A stretch of 22,722 nucleotides of DNA from a virus: positions 1 to 22,722 of IMG/VR virus record IMGVR_UViG_3300017773_000155, one strand, 5' to 3'. The stretch's first letter is position 1; each line of letters starts with the position of its first letter. A program made the position numbers and the translations under genes. Positions 7,260 through 15,322 of the stretch are shown in pieces. The notes under the pieces were generated by a model. That model searched no databases. It saw only the letters and a program-made list of their open reading frames with translations, and was not told the DNA's origin.

Positions 7260-7865
7260 ATGAGTAATTTATTCAACAGACTAGAACTACAGGCATTCCG
7301 TGCGGGCATCACACCTCGTACTAAGGAAAGTCGTGATTGGTTCAGACAAAAGGCATCAAACCTACGTTCGATCAACCGTGAAGCGTTGATGAGAGAAGAT
7401 CCGTTGAAGAGACGTGATGCATCAAAGGCGGACAATCGAGAATTGATTGGTTCTATGCAGATGTTTTCATATGACCCAAAACATAAGAAGACATTACCAT
7501 ACTACGATGTCTTTCCATTAGTAATTATCATAGGGCCCGCAGAAGGTGGATTCTATGGATTGAATTTACATTACTTACCACCGATCCTTCGTGCAAAGTT
7601 CTTAGATGCATTGATGGATGTATTAGGTACAAAGATGACAAAGACTGCAAGAATGCGATTGACATATGGCATCTTACAGAAGACTGCAAAGATGCGGTAC
7701 TATAAACCTTGTTTGAAACACTATCTGACTAAACATGTAAAGAGTCGTTTTGCAGAAGTTCAAACACCAGAGTGGGAAATTGCGACTTTCTTACCAACTG
7801 CACAGTTCAGAAAAGCAAACTCACAGAAAGTATTCTACGATTCAAGGCAAATGATAGATGGCTAA
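7260..7865 (+). CDS. conserved T4-like late protein, possibly gp2-like or another virion protein
   Basis: A 201-residue basic protein between gp4 and the tube-initiator gene. Its most distinctive segment is SYDPKHKKTLPYYDVFPLVI followed by GFYGLNLHYLPPILRAKFLD, and near the C-terminus PEWEIATFLPTAQF. I recall this pattern from conserved proteins of marine T4-like phages, but I am not certain of the function. In T4, gene 2 (DNA end protector) neighbours gene 4, so a gp2-like or other head/neck role is possible from position only. The start has no Shine-Dalgarno and lies five bases after a TATAAATA box. The last eight bases overlap the next gene. Confidence 0.6.
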   Translation: MSNLFNRLELQAFRAGITPRTKESRDWFRQKASNLRSINREALMREDPLKRRDASKADNRELIGSMQMFSYDPKHKKTLPYYDVFPLVIIIGPAEGGFYGLNLHYLPPILRAKFLDALMDVLGTKMTKTARMRLTYGILQKTAKMRYYKPCLKHYLTKHVKSRFAEVQTPEWEIATFLPTAQFRKANSQKVFYDSRQMIDG

Positions 7866-8574
7866 TTCAACAAACAGACTAGGTTCTATTGAAGGACTGA
7901 AAACCCTTATGGGTAGATCCGATGGTTTTCAAAGACCTAATCTATTCCGTGTTCAGTTACCTCCGATTGATGGTTACGACACAAAAGATTTAAACTTATT
8001 GTGTAAGGCAGTATTATTGCCTGGCAGACAGATCGGTACGATCGAGAAACAGTTAGGTACATATAAGTACGACATAGTAAATGCACAGACGGTGTCAGAA
8101 GTAACCATGACATTCCATGTACCAGCAACACACATAGTAAAGAACTACTTCGAAGATTGGCAAAGTATTGCGTGGAACAAAGGTGAAGTAGGATACTTTA
8201 AAGATTACTCAAGAGATCTCAAGATTGAGACTCTAAAGACAGGTGCAACTATTCCTGCCTTTAATAAACAAATACCTTTTTTGAAAAAGATTAGTCCGAC
8301 TATCCGTAATCGACTACCAGACATTGGGCCATTTAAATTGTCCCAAGGTGAATTAGATTTGGACTTAGGTACAAAGGACGAAAAGACATACACTTGTCGT
8401 TTGATCGAAGCGTTTCCAACGACAATGAGTGATATACAGTTGGGTGATGACCAAGAGAACGCAATCATGGAACTCACGGTATCATTTAAGTATAGAGATT
8501 GGGAATCAACTGCCCACGATGCGAAGAGTTTGTTTAGTTCAATACTTAGTGGTGGACTAAATATCTTCAGTTGA
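7858..8574 (+). CDS. 54: tail tube/baseplate tube initiator, gp54/gp19 family
   Basis: 238 residues with the tail-tube fold signature seen in T4 gp19 and gp54: GFQRPNLFRVQLPP, LLCKAVLLPGRQIGT, VTMTFHVPATHIVKNYFEDW and near the end CRLIEAFPTTMSDIQLGDDQ followed by VSFKYRDW. The main tube protein gp19 normally sits next to the sheath gene gp18; this gene instead lies among baseplate genes, so I prefer the gp54-like baseplate-tail tube initiator that seeds gp19 on gp48. A central insert of about 40 residues (FNKQIPFLKKISPTIRNRLP) is longer than in gp19. It overlaps the preceding gene by eight bases, with AAGG about ten bases upstream. Confidence 0.65.
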   Translation: MANSTNRLGSIEGLKTLMGRSDGFQRPNLFRVQLPPIDGYDTKDLNLLCKAVLLPGRQIGTIEKQLGTYKYDIVNAQTVSEVTMTFHVPATHIVKNYFEDWQSIAWNKGEVGYFKDYSRDLKIETLKTGATIPAFNKQIPFLKKISPTIRNRLPDIGPFKLSQGELDLDLGTKDEKTYTCRLIEAFPTTMSDIQLGDDQENAIMELTVSFKYRDWESTAHDAKSLFSSILSGGLNIFS

Positions 8575-8607: not shown

Positions 8608-9324
8608 ATGGCATTACCAAAGTTAAATACTGCACCGATATATGAGATGTCGGTTCCTTCGACAGGAGATCGAGTCAGCTACAGACCGTATCTTGTTAAG
8701 GAAGAAAAGGTTCTCATGATGGCGTTTGAATCTGGTGATCAGAATCAAGCACTAAAAGCCATCGTTGCGACCATTGATGCATGTATTCAAGATAAAATAA
8801 ACGTAGCAGAACTGGCGACATTCGATGTCGAGTATATGTTTACACAGATACGTTCCAAGTCTGCTGGTGAGAAATCGACAGTCTTACTCAAGTGTAAGGA
8901 ATGTGAAACTCAAAACGAGGTAGACATTGATCTATCTGCAATTGAAGTTGAGGTCACAGACGATGACATGAAAGTAGAACTGACCGATCAGATCACGGTA
9001 GAGATGAAGTACCCTTCTTACAAGTCGGTTATGGAATCAGATCTATCTGGTGATCAAGTAAAACTAGGACTGGATATGGTTGTAGCCAGTATCGCTGGAG
9101 TCATAGTTAAAAACGGTCTTGAAGAAGAACGTATGGATGCGAAGGATGTATCCAAAAAAGAACTGATGGAATTCATTGAGTCTATGACCAGTGAACAGTT
9201 CGAAAGAGTTACCAAGTATATTGGTGATCTTCCATCGATGACACATGATGCAAAATTTAAGTGTATCAACTGTGAACATGATAATGAAATTGAGTTAAAA
9301 GGGATATCAGATTTTTTATCCTAA
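8608..9324 (+). CDS. 26: baseplate hub assembly protein gp26 (T4_baseplate family)
   Basis: 238 residues, preceded by a clear AGGAG six bases before the ATG. The opening LPKLNTAPIYEMSVPSTGDRV, the YRPYLVKEEKVL segment and two short zinc-ribbon-like pairs (CKEC at about 96-99 and CINC at about 219-222) are typical of the T4 gp26 baseplate family. T4 gp26 acts in hub assembly. The C-terminus LKGISDFLS is encoded over a U UUU UUA heptamer at 9312-9318, right before the stop at 9322-9324. A -1 slip there would replace the last residue(s) and add 64 residues of a gp51-like sequence. The two likely products are therefore gp26 and a gp26-gp51 fusion. Confidence 0.85.
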   Translation: MALPKLNTAPIYEMSVPSTGDRVSYRPYLVKEEKVLMMAFESGDQNQALKAIVATIDACIQDKINVAELATFDVEYMFTQIRSKSAGEKSTVLLKCKECETQNEVDIDLSAIEVEVTDDDMKVELTDQITVEMKYPSYKSVMESDLSGDQVKLGLDMVVASIAGVIVKNGLEEERMDAKDVSKKELMEFIESMTSEQFERVTKYIGDLPSMTHDAKFKCINCEHDNEIELKGISDFLS

Positions 9325-9361
9325 ACCTTTCTCATGATAGTCTTGTAAACCATTATAAGAC
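9297..9361 (+). promoter_or_regulatory. candidate programmed -1 frameshift signal joining gp26 to gp51
   Basis: The heptamer T TTT TTA occupies 9312-9318 in the gp26 frame (GAT TTT TTA TCC TAA), an X XXY YYZ slippery site. AAAAGGGA at 9297-9304 resembles an internal Shine-Dalgarno about seven bases upstream, as in dnaX-type stimulators. Downstream, GTCTTGTAA at 9340-9348 pairs with TTATAAGAC at 9353-9361 (nine pairs, one G-U, loop ACCA). The 21-base spacer is longer than the common 5-9 bases, so the hairpin's part is uncertain. Confidence 0.65.
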
Positions 9362-9512
9362 AAATTTTGCAATGATGCAACATCATCATTACAGTTTAAG
9401 CGAACTAGAGATGATGATGCCATGGGAAAGGGAAATATATGTTAATATGCTATTGGAACACATTAAGGAAGAGAACGAGAGAATAGAAAGACAGAATCAA
9501 CAAAACGGATAA
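9318..9512 (+). CDS. 51: gp51-like hub assembly segment, read in the -1 frame of gp26
   Basis: This frame is open from the slip site at 9318 to the stop at 9510-9512. It gives 64 residues beginning ILNLSHDSLVNHYKTNFAMM and ending in a charged helix, with YSLSELEMMMPWEREIYVN in between. The SELE..MPWER.IY pattern is typical of gp51-like and related tail-assembly proteins; gp51 catalyses hub assembly in T4. The only in-frame ATGs near the front (9372 and 9375) have no Shine-Dalgarno, and the 18 residues before them read as ordinary helical protein. Both points favour expression by frameshift from gp26 rather than by separate initiation. If initiated independently, the product would be only about 46 residues. 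Confidence 0.7.
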   Translation: MLNLSHDSLVNHYKTNFAMMQHHHYSLSELEMMMPWEREIYVNMLLEHIKEENERIERQNQQNG

Positions 9513-15028: not shown

Positions 15029-15322
15029 TTATTTTCCAATATCTTTAATATTTTTTGGCCCAATGACTTGATATGCACCTTTGTTATAAGCAGGTGCAAT
15101 AGTATAATTAGATGATATATCCTTTTTCTCTTGACTTGTAAGTGTACCGCCAGTAGATCCGTGAGATATGGAATCTGCGCTCGGGTAATCTGGAGTTGAA
15201 CGTCTGAAGGTATCAGGCGCAACGTAGGGTTTGAACTCAGACACTTTCTTCTTTGGTTTAGTCCAGTAGTTAGTTTTCTTCTTACGTCCAGTAGACGTGT
15301 GCCTCATACTAACGTGAATCAT
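15029..15322 (-). CDS. hypothetical basic protein, 97 aa
   Basis: The ATG at 15322 has GGAGA eight bases upstream and overlaps the end of the 50-residue gene before it by 14 bases. The N-terminal third is very basic (TSTGRKKKTNYWTKPKKKVS); the rest is Ser/Thr/Tyr-rich with little secondary structure (DTFRRSTPDYPSADSISHGS, then NYTIAPAYNKGAYQVIGPKN). It looks disordered and nucleic-acid-binding in character, but no family is recognised. It is the last gene of its operon before the promoter of the SprT-like gene. Confidence 0.6.
   Translation of the reverse strand: MIHVSMRHTSTGRKKKTNYWTKPKKKVSEFKPYVAPDTFRRSTPDYPSADSISHGSTGGTLTSQEKKDISSNYTIAPAYNKGAYQVIGPKNIKDIGK

Follow-up and report, generated by a model that had tools for sequence, protein, structure and literature searches.

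The tail gene region of the virus record IMGVR_UViG_3300017773_000155 raises the question of whether its gp26-like gene and the gp51-like reading frame that overlaps the end of it encode two independent proteins, or a short and a long form of one protein that part at a programmed -1 ribosomal frameshift. The window analysed here is this IMG/VR record at its whole length of 22,722 bases, in which the gene order runs from the tail tube gene through gp26-gp51 to a tape-measure-like gene (Table 1). In profile searches both parts of the putative composite gene match profiles of the gp26/gp51 family: gp26 matches PF12322 T4_baseplate (E 7e-55) and phrog_150 baseplate hub (E 5e-58), and the post-slip part (P0002, 66 aa) matches phrog_634 'baseplate hub assembly catalyst' (E 1e-27). 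P0002 also matches the C-terminal end of the phrog_150 profile (E 1e-6), which suggests that phrog_150 includes proteins with both parts. The first-pass annotation had called the next gene tape-measure-like, and its product does match phrog_991 tail length tape measure in a profile search, although the match is weak (E 0.0014); in phage phiM12 a tape-measure-like annotation is carried by the second gene after gp51.

Table 1. Features of the gp26-gp51 locus and its neighbours, in positions of the window.
Feature	Position	Strand	Basis or remark
Tail tube (gp54/gp19-like), upstream neighbour	7858..8574	+	phrog_45 tail tube, E 4e-34
gp26 short form, 238 aa, TAC-N-like, two CxxC motifs	8608..9324	+	PF12322, phrog_150
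SD-like AAAAGGGA, 7 nt upstream of heptamer	9297..9304	+	probable stimulator; family-wide excess
Slippery heptamer T TTT TTA, gp26 frame	9312..9318	+	sequence; T TTT TTN in 57/58 clusters
Zero-frame stop ending gp26 short form	9322..9324	+	sequence
-1 frame extension, gp51-like C-part, 64 codons after slip	9312..9512	+	phrog_634, phrog_150
9-bp hairpin, one G-U pair, loop of 4	9340..9361	+	possible but unproven downstream element
Tape-measure-like downstream gene, 759 aa	9519..11798	+	phrog_991, E 0.0014

The last codons of gp26 read GAT TTT TTA TCC TAA, and therefore T TTT TTA stands in the X XXY YYZ phase of a -1 slippery heptamer, in the zero frame and upstream of the stop. The -1 frame is preceded by a stop at 9291-9293, is open from 9294 and ends with TAA at 9510-9512, its 64 codons from 9318 to 9509 including LSHDSLVNHYKTNFAMM and YSLSELEMMMPWERE. 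These observations agree with the first-pass annotation, which had placed the heptamer two codons before the gp26 stop, a 64-codon frame with a gp51-like part after the slip, and internal ATGs lacking a Shine-Dalgarno sequence: we find no such sequence before the first internal ATGs of the window's -1 frame, and between the upstream stop and residue 20 after the slip this frame has no ATG, GTG or TTG at all, its first usable start being 20 residues past the slip. Across the 6,906 codon sites of the window 21 in-frame XXXYYYZ heptamers were found, and only the one at the end of gp26 lies less than 20 nt from a stop. Elsewhere in the window, an A AAA AAT heptamer is seen in frame 25 nt before the stop of a small gene on the minus strand (15029-15322).

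Joined in silico at the slip, gp26 and gp51 give a protein of about 301 aa whose predicted junction reads ...GISDFL-ILNLSHDSLVNHYK. We consider it highly probable that the virus of the window makes a short and a long form by this -1 slip, and that the two would jointly serve as tail assembly chaperone for the tape measure protein. Most ribosomes on gp26 would terminate at 9322 and release the short protein, while some would slip back one base at the heptamer, probably aided by the SD-like sequence upstream and by RNA structure downstream, and continue into the long protein, which ends in the gp51 part. Together the two forms would then handle the tape measure protein encoded next, in the manner of lambda gpG and gpGT. 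The signals, their conservation, the homologies and the composite make-up of T4 gp51 are observed directly; the slippage itself, its efficiency and the chaperone role we infer.

The first-pass annotation had proposed looking among related phages for a conserved heptamer and for conservation of the residues ahead of the internal ATG. The relatives comprised 80 loci from a viral-contig scan and a named panel from a phage collection; 97 loci out of these fell into 58 clusters at 90% gp26 identity, ranging over marine, cyano-, Vibrio, Rhizobium, Aeromonas, Pseudomonas, Acinetobacter and jumbo phages. In 57 of the 58 clusters the gp26 frame contains T TTT TTN at 7, 10 or 13 nt upstream of its stop, followed by the conserved -1 frame; Aeromonas phage 65 and Stenotrophomonas phage Moby, examined in addition to this set, share the heptamer. 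TTT is invariably the first slip codon, with TTA, TTG, TTT or TTC as the second, and the codon ahead of them has T as its last base throughout. For this conservation, gp26 synonymous codon usage gives a log10 probability of about -30, a figure that is overstated as it assumes independent clusters; in the rest of gp26, runs of 6 or more T occur three times in 39 kb. Over the 17 codons that follow the slip and precede the internal ATG zone (45 clusters), the synonymous share of codon differences is 0.416 in the -1 frame vs 0.094 and 0.087 in the other two frames, and the third -1 codon position has the highest entropy: ahead of the first internal ATG the codons evolve as -1-frame protein. Moreover, in 30 of 57 clusters ATG, GTG and TTG are absent from the -1 frame between the upstream stop and 10 residues past the slip. 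The frameshift reading and its gpG/gpGT analogy, first proposed from the window alone, are well supported by the retention of the heptamer and by this -1-frame selection.

Stimulatory signals on both sides of the slip exceed synonymous controls family-wide. Within the 24 nt before the slip codon SD-like strength is greater than in synonymous alternatives by a mean difference of -1.19 kcal/mol, as compared with +0.24 in controls (Wilcoxon p 4e-7 against control windows), and Gly GGG and Glu GAG codons are over-used at conserved positions there. The SD-like sequence noted upstream by the first-pass annotation is thus present and shared in kind by the family, but the window's own motif is not stronger than its synonymous alternatives (0.43, not significant); we regard AAAAGGGA as a probable stimulator of slippage. 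Downstream, the 60 nt after the slip fold more stably than shuffles that are synonymous in the -1 frame (mean z -1.49, controls -0.39, p 1e-5), with the signal fading at offsets of 30, 60 and 90 nt, and for window positions 9319-9400 the folding z is -3.45. The hairpin that had been proposed downstream does exist, but it starts 21 nt after the heptamer, which is far for a classical stimulator, and is probably not a conserved one: it is retained in the nearest relatives only, its covariation is not above shuffles, and as a family-wide stimulator we rejected it.

How well does this evidence separate a frameshift from other routes to a gp51 protein? One alternative is that gp51 is never fused to gp26 and is translated by itself as a small protein, from its own start or through termination-reinitiation. 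In 8 clusters the gp26 stop shares bases with an ATG (as TAATG or TGATG), an arrangement seen in phages of Vibrio, Rhizobium and Sinorhizobium and in S-CRM01 and 121Q phages; likewise, the public records examined give gp51 a short CDS of its own or leave it out. However, the heptamer is retained even in phages with TAATG, the residues that precede the late and Shine-Dalgarno-less first start of the window are conserved, and in T4 gp51 the extension is joined to a gp26-like part, so that we judge independent expression to be quite improbable. Reinitiation at TAATG or TGATG in the 8 clusters is possible as an addition to frameshifting. Even less credit is due to transcriptional slippage on the T run as the source of the fusion. 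Runs of 6 to 8 T are indeed present in 57 of the 58 clusters, but most are just 6 T, which is short for polymerase slippage, and the runs share one codon phase in 57 of 57 clusters, keeping an X XXY YYZ register for which polymerase slippage has no need, whereas the SD-like and downstream folding signals suit slippage by ribosomes. Finally, that one gene was split by homopolymer sequencing or assembly error, or by gene decay, would account for a break falling on a T run but is refuted by the same break, with varying Z base and stop distance, in independent metagenomes and many cultured isolates, and we give it practically no weight.

The first-pass annotation took gp26/gp51 as the T4-type counterpart of the lambda pair; this stands for the window and its relatives but not in that form for T4 itself, where two distinct genes on opposite strands, transcribed divergently, encode gp26 (208 aa) and gp51 (249 aa). 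Similar to the window, both T4 proteins contain the PF12322 domain and T4 gp51 bears the same C-terminal extension: gp51 matches PF12322 over residues 1-201, phrog_150 over residues 3-248 (profile 13-280 of 282) and phrog_634 over residues 147-246, and it aligns to its end colinearly with the in-silico -1 fusions of other phages, P-x-E-R motif included. Unlike the window's gene, T4 gp26 and its counterparts end short of the extension and have no slippery heptamer in their last codons. By these alignments T4 gp51 is a gp26 paralog plus the same extension in one reading frame, and T4-type phages therefore have two genes where others would frameshift. In a midpoint-rooted tree built on the gp26 part, the gp26 and gp51 proteins of T4-type phages cluster together (bootstrap 93-100), each gene being monophyletic within the cluster (95 and 100), and this grouping fits a single duplication; the direction of change was read from how widely the frameshift form is distributed. 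A relative that covers at least 80% of T4 gp51 occurs in 1,334 phage records, and a relative of the window's gp26 in 588. A tentative history, which we rate as somewhat less probable than its negation, is that the T TTT TTN frameshift is usual and probably ancestral in the wider T4-like assemblage (marine, cyano-, Vibrio, Rhizobium, Pseudomonas, some Aeromonas and Acinetobacter, and jumbo phages), and that the T4 lineage (T4, 44RR, RB49- and Acinetobacter-type) replaced it once, by duplication of gp26 with the extension fused into gp51. Published work may not extend to such a breadth or to a single replacement.

The composite nature of T4 gp51 also bears on earlier accounts of the gene. Sullivan et al. 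2010 found cyanophage gp51 to be only about 20% as long as other gp51 proteins, the cyanophage and marine vibriophage versions having no counterpart of the ~200 N-terminal residues of T4 gp51, and Aeromonas phage Aeh1 seemed to have no gp51 at all (PMC3037559). Those ~200 residues would be absent from cyanophage gp51 because in T4 they belong to a gp26 paralog fused to the extension, which elsewhere is reached by frameshifting; the gp51 of cyanophages and marine vibriophages would then be the tail end of a frameshift product. None of the 24 annotated public records of the frameshift type that were examined carries a joined CDS. If the frameshift holds, several hundred public records would need a joined CDS for gp26/gp51, and frameshift versus gene duplication would offer a natural comparison for how the ratio of two chaperone forms is set. 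We also observed that gp51 is unannotated despite a heptamer and -1 frame in ACG-2014d KJ019056, ACG-2014h KF156338, S-H9-1 NC_070961, LPCS28 and AsFcp_2 (L082, L083, L086, L096 and L098), and among large Aeromonas phages this applies to 65 as well as AsFcp_2.

With respect to the chaperone role, gp26 and the -1 fusion share their N-terminus and lie just before the tape-measure-like gene, the layout of tail assembly chaperone genes. A conserved tail-gene frameshift of this sort, that of lambda gpG/gpGT, was reportedly described by Xu, Hendrix and Duda in 2004. Similar to the window, the lambda pair shares an N-terminus and slips by -1 near the end of the short gene, before the tape measure, whereas the window's gp26 is longer at 238 aa, has CxxC motifs and finds no relatives in a PDB sequence search, hence no sequence match to chaperone structures there. 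The AlphaFold2 model of gp26 (pLDDT 86) has as its highest-probability PDB matches 2ob9, the HK97 tail assembly chaperone (0.87, E 0.56), and 3fgx (0.72, E 1.4); because of these E-values the weak likeness to the HK97 chaperone fold is suggestive only. Against viral models its named top matches are T4-type baseplate hub proteins. T4 gp26 and gp51 both appear among listed hub assembly chaperones, T4 gp51 being required yet missing from the final particle (PMC3004832).

The first-pass annotation knew of no such frameshift in T4-like phages, and here it has to be corrected. Vladimirov, Gautam and Davidson are said to have identified the tail assembly chaperone genes of T4-like phages in 2022, in a paper whose title stresses a non-frameshift mechanism. 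In its passage on these phages, a later paper credits Vladimirov et al. 2022 with poly-T -1 slip signals in their TAC-N (PMC12846349), and a -1 frameshift of this type has thus apparently been reported for some T4-like phages already. Going by that passage the genes concerned are by all indications the same as the window's, although T4 itself, among the T4-like chaperones, has two separate genes. PRFect describes only some T4-like phages as lacking a frameshift, and those have a short gene and a long fusion gene. The chaperone genes of Vandenendeviridae and Andersonviridae (phage Adele) likewise have a conserved poly-T close to the end of TAC-N as the site of a -1 frameshift, with an open frame in all relatives, but these are other phage families and their motif is GTTTTT rather than T TTT TTN (PMC12846349). 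In the literature on gp26 and gp51, and on cyanophage frameshifts, we found no separate report. We regard the phenomenon as real and as probably described in kind already, the window's locus being a further instance of it.

Two further features of the family deserve mention. The CxxC motifs of gp26, CKEC and CINC, lie at window positions 8893-8904 and 9262-9273, and because their four cysteines are invariant in 35 close relatives they suggest a possible zinc site; the second motif is absent from some cyanophages, e.g. S-PM2. In Kuttervirus (Ackermannviridae; L100, L111-L128) the -1 extension is kept at the end of the gp26 homolog and the T6 heptamer is replaced, a near-invariant GAR ATT TTC ATY TAA standing in its position, with TAATG at this stop in three of the loci and TAATT in the rest.
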